From Candidatus Iainarchaeum sp. (lineage in GTDB: Archaea; Micrarchaeota; Micrarchaeia; Anstonellales; Bilamarchaeaceae), in assembly GCA_028714395.1 (NCBI GenBank), contig JAQTMJ010000047.1:1-6450 (forward strand): a DNA stretch of 6,450 nucleotides. Reading direction: 5' to 3'. The translations under genes and the position numbers were made by a program. The notes beneath the pieces are model-generated. The model made no database searches and was not told where the DNA came from. It was given only the letters and a program-made list of their open reading frames with translations. This document shows, piece after piece, positions 30-6,252 of the stretch (position 1 is its first letter; each line of letters opens with the position of its first letter).

Positions 30-608
30 TCATTCTATGGATTCCAGGACCTTTTTTCCCACCCACACGGGGCAGCGCCTTAGGTAAGCCCTCAGGACTT
101 TCATGCGCAGTTTTTTCCCCATCTCCTGCGCGGTTTCCCTGCTGAGCGGCTGCCTGAAATAGGCGAAATCAATGAGCGTTTTTTCAACGTCCGAGACCGG
201 AATCCAGAAATTGCCGTATTTGAGCAGCTCGAAGCCAAAAAACATTCTCCGGCTTATTCTTTTTACCAGGAAATTGCCTCCCTGAAAAGTCCTTACTCCG
301 CTCCGTACGCTGCGCGGCGTAATTACAACCGGATTGGTTTCCTGCTCCCATAGATTCCTGATAGAAAGGGCCTCCTGCAGGCCATAGTAAAACGGCCTGA
401 ACGCGAAGCCGACCGTTTGCGCGTCATCGCTGAACGTGTACGTTCCTCTGCTGATTTTCCCTATTTCGCCCTTTGCGGCAAGATTATGCAGGAGCAGGTG
501 CACGTATCCGCTGCTTATCCCCTTGCTTCTTAGAAAAACCTTCACATCATTTATGGTGAAAGCCGGCGCATTCCTGAAGTGCTCCCTCAATTGCCTGACG
601 TATTTCAT
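30..608 (-). CDS. AbiEi-like antitoxin / winged-helix transcriptional regulator (type IV toxin-antitoxin)
   Basis: Predicted antitoxin and autorepressor of the AbiE-type module; family members neutralise the nucleotidyltransferase toxin and bind inverted repeats in their own promoter. The 192-residue product starts with a compact winged-helix region (about 1-62): a helix-turn-helix around residues 18-44 (FTINDVKVFLRSKG, then GYVHLLLHNL) followed by a wing with GEIGKISRGTYTF. Residues 67-150 fit the AbiEi core: the 'YYGLQEALSIRNLW' helix, a 'VVITPRSVRSG' strand, and 'VSDVEKTLIDFAYF' at 138-151. The C-terminus is basic. The start ATG overlaps the toxin stop as ATGA, so the two genes are probably translationally coupled. 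It is the second gene of the operon, the reverse of the classical order. Base composition is like its neighbours, so no recent transfer is evident. The family assignment rests on motif and context reading only. Confidence 0.8.
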   Translation of the reverse strand: MKYVRQLREHFRNAPAFTINDVKVFLRSKGISSGYVHLLLHNLAAKGEIGKISRGTYTFSDDAQTVGFAFRPFYYGLQEALSIRNLWEQETNPVVITPRSVRSGVRTFQGGNFLVKRISRRMFFGFELLKYGNFWIPVSDVEKTLIDFAYFRQPLSRETAQEMGKKLRMKVLRAYLRRCPVWVGKKVLESIE

Positions 609-1246
609 AGGAACCGCCTCTTCAGGAATTCGCGCAATTGGCTGAACGAAGGTATCGCGCCGGAATAAACTATCGCCCTGATGTTCGGTTCGTCCACGGG
701 CTGCTGCATGGAAACGATGAATTCCCTCATCGCGGCGGAAATCCTGCTCCCCTTGGCGTAGTTCGCCAGATGATAAATATCGTAAATATCGCGTACGAAC
801 CTCCTGCCTTTGTAGGCGCCTATCTTCTCGAGAATAAGCTCCTCTGCGCTGAGCGTAAATACATCCATGAACGTTCCGTCGGTTTTTTCGTACGATTTGG
901 TCATGTGCGGCTTTGTCGCGGAAAAGTTCATCTCAACCCGCACCTCGGCGCTCCCGTTGGAGATTTTGGAGAAGAGAAGGCTGGCGGTCTTCTTGTACTT
1001 CAGCATAGCGAGCCCGCGCTCCCGGACTTTTTGCCTGAATGCATCATCAATCCGCGCCATGTCCGCGCAATAGAAATCCAGGTCTTCGGAGAACCTGTTG
1101 CCCCCGTAGCAGCGCCATATCGCGGTTCCCCCGTGGAGCACCAGCCCGTTCTCTATCCCGTAGAGCATTTCCACGATTTCATCCTGCAACCTGGCAATCT
1201 CCATGTGCATCCTTTTCTTAAGGCGTTTTTCCAGCGGGATTATCAT
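605..1246 (-). CDS. AbiEii/AbiGii-like nucleotidyltransferase toxin
   Basis: Predicted toxin of the AbiE module, a DNA polymerase beta-fold nucleotidyltransferase; characterised relatives transfer nucleotides to RNA targets and cause growth arrest. In the 213-residue product the hallmark is at 38-59: HGGTAI, then the SEDLDF carboxylate pair (Asp55, Asp57). A third acidic position is plausibly Glu105 in 'VRVEMNFS'. The second family signature lies at 136-160, 'EELILEKIGAYKGRR' followed by RDIYDIYHL. No catalytic residue appears lost, so the toxin looks intact. I keep the first ATG because a TATA box is centred about 26 bases upstream of it, as expected for a leaderless transcript; internal ATGs at codons 13 and 15 are alternatives. 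It is promoter-proximal and overlaps the antitoxin gene by 4 bases. A housekeeping nucleotidyltransferase is unlikely given the AbiEi partner. Confidence 0.85.
   Translation of the reverse strand: MIIPLEKRLKKRMHMEIARLQDEIVEMLYGIENGLVLHGGTAIWRCYGGNRFSEDLDFYCADMARIDDAFRQKVRERGLAMLKYKKTASLLFSKISNGSAEVRVEMNFSATKPHMTKSYEKTDGTFMDVFTLSAEELILEKIGAYKGRRFVRDIYDIYHLANYAKGSRISAAMREFIVSMQQPVDEPNIRAIVYSGAIPSFSQLREFLKRRFL
617..620 (-). promoter_or_regulatory. Ribosome binding site (GAGG) for the AbiEi gene
   Basis: On the minus strand GAGG lies 8 bases before the antitoxin ATG, inside the end of the toxin gene. It is complementary to the CCTC of the usual 16S 3' end. Together with the ATGA overlap it supports this start and translation of the antitoxin as the internal gene of the operon. 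Confidence 0.5.
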
Positions 1247-1364: not shown

Positions 1365-2951
1365 ATGGATTTGAACGAAGCCTGGAAGAGCACGTGCAAA
1401 ATCGTTTTTGGTGAAGAGATAGGTGAACTAGAGGAATTCGGGAAATACCTTGGAGGCAATGTGCTGGAGTTAGGAATGCGCAAATCCTCCATTTCAGGCC
1501 AGCCGGTCACGCTCTCTTCCCTCAACGAAATATGCGGGAGCGCAAAATTCATCAGCAACGACGAGGTTCCGGCATACCAGAAAGCCACGCAGGATATCCA
1601 GCTGGACATAAACCAGGTCAAGGACATAGATTCGGTTCTTTCCGCTTTGAAGGAGAAATTCTGCTACTCAGGCAACGTTGTCCTGGGGAATTCCAATGAT
1701 GTGGGGCTTTCGGACAATTGCACTGATTCCTCGCACGTCTACAAATCTCAGGTAGTTGGCGACGGGTGCAAATACGTTGCCTTCTCAAGCCAGGTCCGCC
1801 AGACCCAATACGCTTTCGGAGTAACTTACGACGGTGGCTCGAAGTTCGCAATCAGGGGCTTTTGCACATACAAGCTCAACCGCTGCTTCGAGAATCTCAA
1901 CACGTTCGACTCCTCGGATTGCTATTTCACGGCAGGCCTCAGGTCCTGTTCGAACTGCATGTTCTCCTTCAACCTGAGGAACAAGAACAATGCAATCGGG
2001 AATCTCGCGCTCCAGAAGGACGCTTACCTTGCCCTGAGGAAGAAGCTCCTTGCCGAAATAACGGACGAATTGAAGAGGAAAAAATCCATGCCCGGAATAA
2101 TAGGCCTGCTCACCGCGCCTTCACATTCACTTGCCCGCCAGGCAAAGGCACAGAATTTGAAGAACTTTTACCGCGGCAGGCCATCCGGGCATGTGGAAAC
2201 AGCTTTTGAAAACACCTGCACGGTCCTTTTCGGAAAGAGCCTGGGCCGGCTTGTGCCCTTCGAGAAGTGGCTGTCCAGGCACGTGAACGGCGTAGTGCCG
2301 TCAACGTCGCCCCTGAGCGGCCAGCCGCTCTATATATCAGCAATTCCCTCCTTTTTGGCCCTCAGGGGCAGGGTCCTTGGGCTTGAAGAAGCGGTGGAGC
2401 TGGGCAAGCTCCATATTCCAGAATCCGCTTTGCAGGATTTCAGCCTTTCCAATGCCGCCGAGAAGCTCGAGAGCATTCGCTACACGACCACCGAGGACAT
2501 ATACGGCACGAACAATCTGGACATGGTGGAGTGCACTGACTACGGAAACAACTCGGCGCACGCTTTCCGGAGTTCGCAAGCCTACGTGTGCAAATGTGTC
2601 GCCTATTCTTTCTGGCCCAGAAATTCGGAATTCATCTTCGGCTCGAAATTTGCGTTCTATTCCAAGCACTGCGTGAATTGCTACAATTCCACCAACCTAA
2701 GCCGATGCTTTGAAGTGAGCGATTCCAACAACTGCTCCGATTGCTACTTTTGCCATAATTCCGAAGGGCTTTCCAACTGCATATTCTGCTTCAATGCAAA
2801 GAGCCTGCGATATGCAATAGGGAATAAAGAAATCGGACGCGAGAACTATTTGAAAATAAAGAAAATCATTTTAGACGAAATGGTTAAGAAGCTGGAGAAA
2901 GATAAGAAGCTTGAATTAGATATTTACAACATAGGCTGCTATAAATCCTAG
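1365..2951 (+). CDS. Uncharacterised two-domain Cys-rich protein with 12-residue solenoid-like repeats
   Basis: Function unknown. The 528-residue product is an internal duplication: residues 4-236 and 278-510 align with a constant offset of 274. Each copy has a helical start (AWKSTC at 6-11, AFENTC at 280-285), an SGQP motif (44-47, 318-321), a variable middle, then six tandem 12-residue units (138-209, 412-483) closed by AIGN and a Lys-rich helix. Cysteines recur at unit position 1 (174, 186, 198; 436, 448, 460, 472) and, only in the second copy, at position 4 (439, 463, 475). There are 23 cysteines in all, with no signal peptide or membrane segment. From memory the repeats resemble C-terminal regions of Cys-rich CPR/DPANN proteins sometimes labelled 'CaiB/BaiF' in databases, a label this sequence does not support. 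I chose ATG 1365 because a TATA-like box fits a leaderless start there; an in-frame TTG at 1344 would add 7 residues. It heads the cluster with the TldE and LonB genes. Confidence 0.8.
   Translation: MDLNEAWKSTCKIVFGEEIGELEEFGKYLGGNVLELGMRKSSISGQPVTLSSLNEICGSAKFISNDEVPAYQKATQDIQLDINQVKDIDSVLSALKEKFCYSGNVVLGNSNDVGLSDNCTDSSHVYKSQVVGDGCKYVAFSSQVRQTQYAFGVTYDGGSKFAIRGFCTYKLNRCFENLNTFDSSDCYFTAGLRSCSNCMFSFNLRNKNNAIGNLALQKDAYLALRKKLLAEITDELKRKKSMPGIIGLLTAPSHSLARQAKAQNLKNFYRGRPSGHVETAFENTCTVLFGKSLGRLVPFEKWLSRHVNGVVPSTSPLSGQPLYISAIPSFLALRGRVLGLEEAVELGKLHIPESALQDFSLSNAAEKLESIRYTTTEDIYGTNNLDMVECTDYGNNSAHAFRSSQAYVCKCVAYSFWPRNSEFIFGSKFAFYSKHCVNCYNSTNLSRCFEVSDSNNCSDCYFCHNSEGLSNCIFCFNAKSLRYAIGNKEIGRENYLKIKKIILDEMVKKLEKDKKLELDIYNIGCYKS
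1776..1991 (+). repeat. Six 12-codon repeats, first domain copy
   Basis: Encodes six consecutive 12-residue units with no insertion: VAFSSQVRQTQY, AFGVTYDGGSKF, AIRGFCTYKLNR, CFENLNTFDSSD, CYFTAGLRSCSN and CMFSFNLRNKNN, followed by AIGN. Position 1 is always V, A or C, and position 12 is mostly aromatic, Arg, Asp or Asn. The exact period and stacked cysteines suggest a small beta-solenoid with 12 residues per coil, the same coil length as the disulfide-rich beetle antifreeze proteins. The fold is inferred; the period is seen directly. Confidence 0.8.
2598..2813 (+). repeat. Six 12-codon repeats, second domain copy
   Basis: Encodes VAYSFWPRNSEF, IFGSKFAFYSKH, CVNCYNSTNLSR, CFEVSDSNNCSD, CYFCHNSEGLSN and CIFCFNAKSLRY, then AIGN, in exact register with the first copy 822 bases upstream. 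Four successive units begin with Cys and three of them have CxxC at positions 1 and 4, which the first copy lacks. Such stacked pairs could form disulfide ladders or bind metal; neither can be decided from sequence. Confidence 0.8.
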
Positions 2952-2964: not shown

Positions 2965-4230
2965 ATGCTCGACTCATTGAAGATGTTCCATTCCCTGGGC
3001 CTCCATGACGGGGAGATATTCAGCCTGGAAGGCACCCGCACAGTTTACGAATACTCGCAGAAAATCCTGAAGACAAAAACTTTCGGGATAGATACAGGGT
3101 TCGGAATCAGGGTCCTCAAGAACAAAAAGCTGGGCTTCTCATTCTGCAATTCAAAGGAGCAGATTCCGGCAGCGATAAAGCGCGCCATTTCCATTTCCTC
3201 ATTCTCCGACTCCAGCCCCTTCTCGTTTGCGCAGAGGCAGAAATACCGCCCTGCTGAAGCCTTTGACAGGAAAATCGCGGATGCGGACGAGAAGGAAATG
3301 CTCTCCATCGTAGGGCAGATTGAGGACGGAGTGAAAAAGCACGCCGAGCCTGTGCGCATAGTGCTTGTTTCCCAAAGAGAAGAAAGTGCATTGGCGAACA
3401 CCAGCCTGCTTTTCGCGAAGGAGCGCTCCACTTCGCTCATGGCGTTCGCAGAAGCCAAAAACGGGAACGGCTTCGGCTCCTCGGATTACGCCCACTACAA
3501 GGCACTGAAGGACCCTTATGCGCTCGGGGAAAAGGCCGGGCTCATGGCAAAGGAGATGAAAAACCCGAAAAAGCTCCCCGCAGGAAAATACTCGGTGATA
3601 TTCTCCCAGGAGACGCTCTCCTCGCTGCTTTCCCTCCTGCTCTATTCCTTCTCAGGCGAGCTGAAAAGGAGGAAAATCTCCAAATTATGGAATCAGGAAG
3701 GCGAGCGCCTTTTCCATGAAAAATTCACCCTCTTTGATGACCCGTTCGCGGATGCGGCCGCGAAATCCGCCTTCGATGGCGAAGGAGTTTCATCAAGGCG
3801 CACCGTTCTCATAGACAAAGGAAATGTGAATAATTTCCTCTACACCCGCGAGTGCGCGGCCTTCTCCGGAATAAATGCAGAAGGCAACTGCGCAAGGGCG
3901 GGCTATTCGCTCCCCCCTTCCATAGGGGATTCAAACACGGTAATAGAAGCCGGGGACGCAGAACCCAGGAAGGAACTGGGAAAGTACCTCTTCATAGAAT
4001 CCATGCACGGTCTTCATACCGCGAACCAGCTCAGCGGCGATTTCGGGGCCGAGGCGAGCATCGCCTTCCTGCATGAAAAAGGCAAAATACTCCCAGTGCG
4101 CGGCTTCATGGTGAGCGAAAACATATTTAAGCTGTTCAACAGAATAGAATACATAGGGAAAAAACAGGAGCAATCCGGAAACCTCGTTGCGCCTTCAATC
4201 GCATTTTCCGATGTTTCCATAATTTCCTGA
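2965..4230 (+). CDS. TldE/PmbA-like protein (TldD/TldE peptidase family, non-catalytic subunit type)
   Basis: Member of the TldD/PmbA family. In characterised systems TldD and TldE form a cytoplasmic heterodimeric metallopeptidase that degrades unfolded peptides and matures small peptides such as microcins; only TldD carries the zinc HExxxH site. The 421-residue product has the family's architecture: an N-terminal domain with 'GFGIRVLKNKKLGFSF' (45-60), then a C-terminal beta-rich domain with DGEGVSSRRT plus VLIDKGNVNNFLY (271-293), GLHTANQLSGDF (349-360) and PVRGFMVSENIF (377-388). No HExxxH is present; the equivalent helix reads FSQETLSSLLSLL (213-225), as in the TldE/PmbA branch. Length is slightly short of typical members (about 440-450). 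It follows the Cys-rich gene by 13 bases and precedes lonB by 9, so co-transcription is likely. A TldD gene is not in the window and may lie elsewhere. Confidence 0.88.
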   Translation: MLDSLKMFHSLGLHDGEIFSLEGTRTVYEYSQKILKTKTFGIDTGFGIRVLKNKKLGFSFCNSKEQIPAAIKRAISISSFSDSSPFSFAQRQKYRPAEAFDRKIADADEKEMLSIVGQIEDGVKKHAEPVRIVLVSQREESALANTSLLFAKERSTSLMAFAEAKNGNGFGSSDYAHYKALKDPYALGEKAGLMAKEMKNPKKLPAGKYSVIFSQETLSSLLSLLLYSFSGELKRRKISKLWNQEGERLFHEKFTLFDDPFADAAAKSAFDGEGVSSRRTVLIDKGNVNNFLYTRECAAFSGINAEGNCARAGYSLPPSIGDSNTVIEAGDAEPRKELGKYLFIESMHGLHTANQLSGDFGAEASIAFLHEKGKILPVRGFMVSENIFKLFNRIEYIGKKQEQSGNLVAPSIAFSDVSIIS

Positions 4231-4235
4231 GTGAT
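4231..4235 (+). promoter_or_regulatory. Ribosome binding site (GTGAT) for lonB, deciding its start
   Basis: GTGAT directly follows the TldE-like stop codon and ends 4 bases before the ATG at 4240. The GTG at 4231 is in frame and could be taken for the start, but it is better read as part of this ribosome binding site, because the same pentamer sits at a similar distance before the preceding gene and because an MRE-type start removes only three residues. Confidence 0.55.
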
Positions 4236-4239
4236 AATA

Positions 4240-6252
4240 ATGCGTGAATTCAAAACCACAGAAGAGATAGAAGTTCCTGAGAAGCTCATAGACCAGGTCA
4301 TCGGCCAGGAGAAGGCAGTGGAGATAATAAAGAAGGCGGCAAGGCAGAAGAGGAACGTGCTGCTCATAGGCTCCCCGGGGACCGGGAAGAGCATGCTGGC
4401 CCAGGCCATGGCTGGAATAATGCCGCTGGAAAGCCTTGAAGACGTTTTCGCGTACCCCAACCAGATAAACGAGAACCAGCCGCTCATACGCTCGTTCCCT
4501 ACCTATCCGGATTGGAACTACCTCGCGAAAAGGCCGGACTTGAAGCGCTACTACAATCCCCTGGAGCTTGCGGCCATAAAGAAATACAGCGAGGAAGGAA
4601 AGGTCCAGCTGTTGCCCCCCTTGCTGAAGGAAGGCCTGGGCAGGCGCATGGTCCGGTACCACAAGCCCCAGCAGGAAGAGCCCCAGTCCCAGGTGGGCAC
4701 CAACACCCTGCTCGCGATAGGTGGCGTGGTGCTTCTCGCAATCATCCTGTTTTCAGACCTGCCGGACAACACCAAGTGGCTCATATTCGCGGTCGCGGTG
4801 GGCCTCGGCTTCCTTTACCTTCTTTCGGGGCTTGCGAACAAAATGCAGAAGCGCATGATGCCCTTCGAGGCTCCTGCTCCCAAGATGATTGTCGACAATA
4901 CGGGAAACAATGCAGCGCCCTTCGTTGACGCCACCGGCTCCAGGGCAGGCTCGCTCCTGGGAGACGTGAAACATGATCCATTGCAGTCCGGAGGGCTGGG
5001 AACCCCGGCCCATCTCCGCGTTGAAAGCGGGGCAATCCACAAGGCCAACAAAGGGGTCCTGTTCATAGACGAAATCGCATCGCTCAAGCTCAACTGGCAG
5101 CAGGAGCTTCTCACTGCGATGCAGGAAAAGAAGTATTTCATAACAGGCCAGAGCGAGATGAGCTCCGGCGCGCTGGTGAAAACCGAGAACGTTCCGTGCG
5201 ATTTCGTGCTTGTGGCAGCAGGAAACCTTCCTGATATGCAGCACATCCATCCGGCTCTGCGCTCCAGAATCCGCGGCTCGGGCTACGAGGTTTACATGGA
5301 GGATAGCATGGAGGACAACGATGCGAATAGGGACAGGCTGGTCCAGTTCGTGGCCCAGGAAGTGAAGCGCGACGGGAAAATACCGCACTTCACAAGGGAA
5401 GCTGCAATAGACATCATGGAAGAGGGGCGCCGCATGTCCGGAAGAAAAGGCCGGCTCACCATGAACCTTAGGGAACTGGGCGGGCTCATGCGCGCCGCAG
5501 GGGACGTTGCCCGGGAGGAGAATGCACCCTACGTGCTTCCTGAGCACGTGAAGAAAGGAAAGAAGACATTTTCAAATGTTGAGTTCCAGCTCAGCAAGAA
5601 AATCGCGGAGCAGAAGAAGGAATACCAGATATTCACCAACAAGGGATTTGAAGTGGGGAAGGTGAACGGCCTGGCCATTTTGGGCGAAAGCATGGTCGGG
5701 CTGGTCCTGCCCATAGTGGCCGAGGTCACGCCTTCGGCTTCCAGGAGCGAGGGGCGCGTAATCGCGACAGGAAAGCTCGGGCAGATAGCCAAGGAGGCAG
5801 TGGACAACGTTTCCGCCATCCTGAAGAAATACGAGAGCAAGGACCTTTCCCAGAAAGATATTCACATACAGTTTTTGCAGACCTATGAAGGGGTGGAAGG
5901 GGACAGTGCATCCATCTCAATTGCAGTGGGGGTCATTTCAGCGCTTGAAGGGATTCCGCTGAACCAGGCCTTTGCGCTCACAGGCTCGCTTTCAGTGCGC
6001 GGGGATTCGCTCCCCGTGGGAGGAATAAACGGGAAAATAGAAGCTGCGATAGACGCGGGCATGACGAGCGTGATAATACCCAAGGCCAACGAAGGCGACG
6101 TGTACCTTCCCAAGGAGCTGCTCAGCAAGATAAAGGTGATTCCGGTTTCAACAATTGCCGAGGTTCTTGATTACGTGCTTGAGGACAGCCCGAGAAAGAA
6201 GAAGCTGGTTTCGGAAATAAAGAAGAACATGAAGAAGGAAGGGAGAAATTAG
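4240..6252 (+). CDS. lonB: LonB, archaeal membrane-anchored ATP-dependent Lon protease
   Basis: ATP-driven protease for quality control and regulatory proteolysis, anchored in the cytoplasmic membrane with its active parts in the cytoplasm. The 670-residue product shows Walker A GSPGTGKS (44-51), two membrane helices inside the AAA+ module (about 155-171 and 180-199), a conserved VDNTG...FVDATG segment, Walker B VLFIDE (273-278), sensor-1 AAGN (326-329), arginine-finger candidates in LRSRIR (340-345) and sensor 2 in '[15 protein letters not shown]' (Arg411). The protease domain has the catalytic dyad Ser556 (EGDSAS) and Lys599 (GGINGK). All key residues are present. Compared with Thermococcus LonB as I remember it, about 40-45 extra residues lie between the first AAA+ strands and the membrane helices (roughly 88-132). 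It is last in the cluster, 9 bases after the TldE-like gene. GTG 4231 is an alternative start. Confidence 0.95.

Follow-up and report, generated by a model that had tools for sequence, protein, structure and literature searches.

A predicted 12-residue beta-solenoid family of DPANN archaea and CPR bacteria, often encoded beside a VirD4-like ATPase

The locus and its two-module protein

The window, i.e., the whole stretch of 6,450 nucleotides analysed here, carries on its forward strand the gene of a Cys-rich protein built of two modules (Table 1). Translation most likely begins at the ATG at position 1365, an in-frame TTG at 1344 being a possible alternative. The gene is followed after 13 bp by that of a TldD/PmbA-like metalloprotease and then directly by that of an archaeal LonB (TIGR00764, 816 bits). 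On the opposite strand lies an AbiEi-like/AbiEii nucleotidyltransferase pair which, judging from sequence, would form a type IV toxin–antitoxin-like system.

Table 1. Features of the window and the basis of their assignment
Feature	Coordinates	Strand	Basis
AbiEi-like gene	30..608	-	
AbiEii nucleotidyltransferase gene	605..1246	-	
Two-module solenoid protein CDS	1365..2951	+	ORF list; 528 aa, 23 Cys, pI 8.2, 58.9 kDa
Module 1 N-terminal alpha/beta domain (predicted), residues 1-100	1365..1664	+	AlphaFold2, pLDDT 88-98
Module 1 solenoid (predicted), residues 104-209	1674..1991	+	strands every 6 residues in 111-157; lag-12 periodicity
Module 1 cap (predicted), IGN motif + long helix (218-239)	1992..2099	+	model; alignment
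Module 2 N-terminal domain (predicted), residues 275-374	2187..2486	+	model; module HMM cross-matches
Module 2 solenoid (predicted), residues 376-483	2490..2813	+	model; lag-12 periodicity
Module 2 cap helix (predicted, 492-513) + conserved C-terminal tail	2814..2948	+	model; IYNIGC-type tail consensus in alignment
TldD/PmbA-like metalloprotease, then archaeal LonB	2965..6252	+	

The initial annotation had laid out twelve gapless units of 12 residues, six in each half of the protein, and this layout was reproduced at residues 138–209 and 412–483 (nucleotides 1776–1991 and 2598–2813). The first positions of the units read V, A, A, C, C, C and V, I, C, C, C, C, that is, seven cysteines and otherwise V, A or I, as had been stated; none of 20,000 phase-free shuffles of both blocks placed V, A, I or C at all twelve. 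In the window protein on its own, the hydrophobic/Cys mask gave a lag-12 signal of 0.34 in the N half, a value reached by 0 of 2,000 shuffles, and of 0.10 in the C half (p = 0.11, not significant). The strongest support for the register is the alignment of 119 homologues, where lag 12 was the top hydrophobicity lag in both halves (0.46 and 0.39; 0 of 2,000 shuffles), as compared to 0.16–0.17 at lag 18. Of 118 homologues, 115 have the first 72-residue block at exactly that length and 113 the second, so the 12-residue register is kept among them.

Modelling of the window protein with AlphaFold2 predicted a two-strand solenoid with 12 residues per turn (mean pLDDT 89), supporting the minimal beta-solenoid that had been proposed rather than a non-solenoidal fold. 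Predicted strands start at residues 111, 117, 123, 129, 136, 142, 148 and 154 (block pLDDT 91–97), a geometry of two short strands per 12–13 residues. The solenoid model is confident at about residues 104–170 and 376–420, and the Cys-rich coils singled out by the initial annotation reach a pLDDT of 70–78; the predicted coils begin ahead of the annotated units, at approximately 104–111 in module 1 and 376–385 in module 2.

The protein consists of two homologous modules, the N and C modules matching each other's HMMs. Residues W7, G20, S41, S44, K86 and D87, all within the N-terminal domain of module 1, are at least 90% conserved, and F200, G212 and N213 are invariant across the 119 rows. The Cys-rich lower coils (residues 435–483) had the lowest mean column entropy of ten scored regions (1.14), the other nine, linker and tail included, ranging from 1.66 to 3.23 with the tail lowest among these.

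Pfam and NCBIfam returned no family for the window protein at E ≤ 1, in line with the earlier view that no standard named domain fits, and PDB sequences gave no match at E ≤ 10. Coils of left-handed beta-helix acyltransferases (GlmU, LpxA, LpxD) span 18 residues and those of pentapeptide repeat proteins (A(D/N)LXX) span 20; unlike these hexapeptide and pentapeptide families, the window family has a period of 12 and no Pfam match. A closer likeness is found in the hyperactive antifreeze proteins of the beetles Tenebrio and Dorcus, whose 12-residue TCTxSxNCxxAx coils are described in PMC8038014: both have 12 residues per coil, regularly placed cysteines and a very regular coil length. However, the units of the window protein lack the TCTxSxNC motif, each coil is predicted to have two strands some four residues long, with large hydrophobic residues inside, the two modules are capped and carry N-terminal domains, and the hosts are archaea and CPR bacteria. 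We claim no homology between the two.

Paralogues, split genes and CPR relatives

Of 7,995 candidates scored with phmmer, at least 605 were homologues at E ≤ 0.001; the named ones among the 120 listed belong to Micrarchaeota and their relatives and are annotated as hypothetical or uncharacterised. The genome of the window holds 17 family matches. Merged by position, these represent about 14 members, each a gene or a gene pair: nine are full-length in one frame, three lie on contig C98 (two truncated by contig ends or close to them, the third divided between two frames), and the rest are N/C pairs located on C110 and C8. Related genomes also encode the modules as separate genes: in 17 cases an N-type gene is followed on the same strand by a C-type gene, and in 14 of these the two overlap, a count that is an upper estimate because the frames begin at the first possible start codon. 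The 822-aa homologue P0022 apparently contains three modules, and a distant branch (G106) carries tandem single-module genes adjoining its own ATPase (27% identical). This paralogy, the two-module and split-gene anatomy and the ATPase link go beyond the initial annotation, and literature searches whose scope excluded preprints and most subscription papers returned no description of the solenoid family or of that link.

A mobile-element origin was considered and dropped: the window protein has no match in plasmids, the CPR protein P0209 gave one short weak match against phages (15% of the query, E = 2e-4), and relatives in viral contigs numbered 0 for A2 and 1 for A5.

A likeness to Cys-rich CPR proteins had been noted in the initial annotation, and it holds by profile–profile comparison. 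A single-module profile made without CPR bait found the CPR-type protein P0202 (E = 4.3e-19). The subsequent search, run with a CPR bait, gave at least 7,996 scored candidates, the named matches being mostly Patescibacteria, Gracilibacteria and Peregrinibacteria. Against a 31-row CPR alignment with P0202 among its rows, the archaeal modules scored 99.1% probability in hhalign (E = 4.7e-19, 195 columns) and the two-module alignment 98.5%; these scores are perhaps raised by Cys-richness, and the match spans the Cys-poor N-terminal part too. By this comparison, the archaeal solenoid module and its cap share homology with a very large family of CPR proteins that end in treble clefs.

Treble-clef zinc-finger models (Pfam zf_Tbcl PF13451 and zf_Tbcl_2 PF23477) were matched by 22 and 18 of the 31 CPR members, and Pfam covers these ends only, leaving the solenoid uncovered. 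The window protein resembles these CPR proteins in its whole-module homology, and both families are tandem and have a VirD4-like neighbour; unlike them, with their treble clefs at both ends, it has no treble clef according to Pfam. The first CPR solenoid region shows a lag-12 signal as in the archaeal proteins, and the second gave no significant peak (hydrophobicity lag 12 = 0.16, any-lag p = 0.46). In the CPR model the first region (residues 121–220) reached a pLDDT of 62–69 and therefore does not confirm the solenoid fold there on its own.

GTDB genomes were scanned with the CPR alignment, and the best 80 of 517 relatives, i.e., the closest part of the family, yielded 75 loci, 49 of which contain two or more solenoid ORFs. 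One run comprises 20 solenoid genes on one strand, broken by one other ORF, with an ATPase gene 41 bp further; the paralogues within it are 32–61% identical (median 45). One of the loci (L133) has a treble-clef solenoid protein of the CPR type on a contig assigned by its label to Candidatus Micrarchaeota (UBA10214), which may reflect a binning error or a transfer.

Association with a VirD4-like ATPase

The genomic association of the solenoids with an ATPase is a larger result than the fold. Twenty archaeal loci were taken around solenoid matches irrespective of their neighbours, and 15 contain a P-loop ATPase family of 580–910 aa; the three proteins scanned matched Pfam DUF87 and TrwB_AAD_bind, i.e., the HerA/VirD4 type. 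When 146 genomes of the window's phylum were searched with solenoid and ATPase alignments, 24 had both, 2 the solenoid only, 3 the ATPase only and 117 neither (Fisher 4.7e-22), and without the 14 genomes that had given rows to the ATPase alignment the counts were 10, 2, 3 and 117 (Fisher 5.8e-11). The solenoid-only genomes are that of the window (G000; 83.7% complete, 134 contigs), where no such ATPase was found, and G102, which was searched likewise and gave no ATPase of the VirD4-like array type. The ATPase-only genomes (G003, G009, G067) have no solenoid beside the ATPase. Presence and absence are concordant in the genera g2 (3 genomes with both, 2 with neither), g3 (2 and 2) and g4 (2 and 6).

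The gap between solenoid and ATPase is at most 220 bp in 19 of the 24 genomes (for one, G132, from match coordinates), the non-adjacent ones being G057 (4.6 kb), G096 (1.2 kb), G113 (1.1 kb), G033 (~8.5 kb) and G126 (3.5-kb contig). The two genes are convergent, on the same strand or divergent, and because the orientations vary the link appears to be more than one inherited operon. A single ATPase was found in 25 of 27 genomes, G105 and G113 each having two partial matches, and at first look the number of solenoid candidates per genome ranged from 3 to 24.

Among the CPR loci, one ATPase cluster recurred in 18 of 75; 14 of its 22 proteins are encoded no more than 300 bp from a solenoid. VirD4-like genes gave 78 matches at E ≤ 1e-30 in 22 CPR genomes, 2–5 per genome. 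The top-scoring gene was examined in 20 of these, leaving out G148 (matches of another type) and G166 (TGA read as sense); it lay within 370 bp of a same-strand solenoid in 17 and was not adjacent in 3. A second VirD4-like gene near a solenoid was found in 0 of 20 genomes (19 shared with the former set, plus G148). Seven of the 20 had supplied rows to the ATPase query, and among the 13 others 10 were adjacent (Fisher 3.1e-6). The CPR link rests on adjacency, the archaeal one on adjacency and co-occurrence. In G166, the genome of locus L182, the VirD4-like genes carry 23–27 in-frame TGA each, and TGA is probably a sense codon there, as is known for Gracilibacteria.

Gene order common to related genomes could mean that the pair is linked by history alone, its proteins not cooperating. 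We regard this as barely plausible, since adjacency survives convergent, same-strand and divergent arrangements in both archaea and bacteria, presence and absence agree within genera, and other VirD4-like genes are adjacent in none of 20 cases.

The array ATPases match Pfam DUF87, TrwB_AAD_bind, T4SS-DNA_transf and TraG-D_C, keep Walker A and B, and contain a VirD4/TrwB-type P-loop motor domain, in all of which they resemble the coupling proteins of type IV secretion systems (T4SS). The HMM of the DPANN array ATPases scored 112–145 bits with 20 CPR array ATPases and 76–113 bits with 20 other CPR VirD4-like proteins, as compared to 8–26 bits with 22 DUF87 proteins that the same DPANN genomes encode besides the array ATPase. 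This pattern points to an archaeal ATPase of VirD4 kind, unlike the HerA-type proteins of its own genome. In the tree, which kept 61 of 62 rows (genC_L223, having no recognised Walker motif, was dropped), the DPANN array ATPases form a single clade (99/96) and those of CPR fall into two groups; one joint clade is neither shown nor rejected (AU p = 0.40).

Classical VirD4 carries an N-terminal hydrophobic segment. The array ATPases differ from VirD4/TrwB in being encoded with solenoid arrays and in having no such anchor: a simple hydropathy scan detected a membrane segment in 0 of 20 CPR array ATPases, N terminus included, and, in 4 of 14 DPANN ones, a single core segment just over the threshold, while 9 of 20 other CPR VirD4-like genes encode a strong N-terminal hydrophobic segment. 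Thus, the array ATPase is predicted to be free of a membrane anchor. No channel component recurred among the neighbour clusters seen at the 20 archaeal and 75 CPR loci. T2SSF is present in 142 of the 146 genomes, and type IV pilus genes, being near universal, are uninformative either way as a matching channel.

VirD4/HerA-family motors include DNA pumps, and the pair could accordingly handle DNA, with the motor moving it during uptake or processing and the solenoids binding or guiding nucleic acid. The best NCBIfam match of the DPANN ATPase is the DNA-translocating CedD, albeit at 39.6 bits, far below the cut-off of 600, and the treble clefs of the CPR members would also suit such a role. However, the window protein has none, the solenoids are not basic (median pI 7.4 for 119 DPANN and 5.9 for 31 CPR proteins), and large sets of diverged paralogues are unexpected for an accessory of a DNA pump, which makes this explanation unlikely.

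Possible roles of the solenoid–ATPase pair

Solenoids with open ends can stack, and the proteins could form filaments or a layer in or on the cell that the ATPase assembles or remodels. The ordered, mostly overlapping N/C gene pairs are as expected of a heteromeric assembly, and SLH-domain proteins (one of eight scanned) occur near 8 of the 75 CPR loci. On the other hand, a signal peptide-like hydrophobic segment above the hydropathy threshold was seen in 0 of 119 archaeal and 0 of 31 CPR solenoids, and a VirD4-like motor would be atypical as an assembly factor. We consider such a scaffold or coat rather improbable.

The patchy presence within genera could also indicate a defence or conflict system, in which the motor would act with diversified sensors against mobile elements or competitors. 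The best PADLOC match of both array ATPases was mad8 (1.3e-11 and 1.4e-12), with weaker matches to HerA, and the window gene adjoins the AbiEi/AbiEii pair. Nevertheless, the two solenoid proteins scanned have no PADLOC match, the neighbour clusters seen at the arrays include no recurrent nuclease or toxin domain, and AbiE-like genes are absent from the recurrent neighbours, leaving defence a slim chance.

We favour a role of the solenoid proteins as cargo that the VirD4-like ATPase recruits and that is probably exported or passed into another, partner cell, and assign it a probability of roughly 40%. It is suggested by the finding that a single motor gene is linked to numerous diverged partners in both archaea and bacteria. 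The one motor would serve these partners as substrates, docking on a pilus or a T4SS-type channel encoded elsewhere, and the solenoids would reach a host or neighbouring cell. The solenoid would be the rigid and compact body of the cargo. Its Cys-rich coils and cap are conserved, with the lowest entropy, and may serve all members as a site of docking or metal binding; the upper coils are less conserved and may be where the cargo varies. Against delivery as cargo stand the negative ATPase search in the window's genome and G102, the three ATPase-only genomes, the non-adjacent pairs (5 of 24 archaeal and 3 of 20 CPR genomes), the absence of an N-terminal anchor from the ATPases and that of a recurrent channel gene.

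PMC12102498 reports 5,713 VirD4 homologues in 2,918 genomes of Patescibacteria, 148 of them near virB4, and its authors leave an exaptation for other functions possible. The solenoid arrays supply a partner for some of those encoded far from virB4. On a wider and more tentative view, which we hold to be doubtful, CPR and DPANN, the two major groupings of symbionts with small genomes, would share an undescribed delivery system made of an anchor-less VirD4-like motor and lineage-diversified tandem Cys-rich solenoid cargo; it would serve a share of the 'orphan' coupling proteins of Patescibacteria, and the window gene would encode archaeal cargo. In any case, a very large unannotated superfamily is given a predicted fold and tied to a motor in archaea and bacteria. 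If the solenoids are indeed cargo of the ATPase, tests become possible for the role of the Patescibacteria VirD4-like proteins encoded away from virB4 (PMC12102498) and for the means by which CPR and DPANN affect partner cells.

Other genes were also seen beside the arrays. A 1,283-aa ORF adjoins one archaeal array (L057:11876-15724, + strand) and has no Pfam match at E ≤ 0.1. A family of 320–360 aa, Lrp/AsnC-like by eye, occurs in five archaeal loci, and regulators of 230–265 aa in 6 of 20 (L051, L054, L057, L058, L061 and L065), both members scanned matching HTH_10. At the CPR loci, TrmB-like regulators, so assigned from Pfam scans of 3 of 30 proteins, were found in 26 of 75 (e.g., L117:6375-7130), 23 of the 30 lying 300 bp or less from a solenoid gene.
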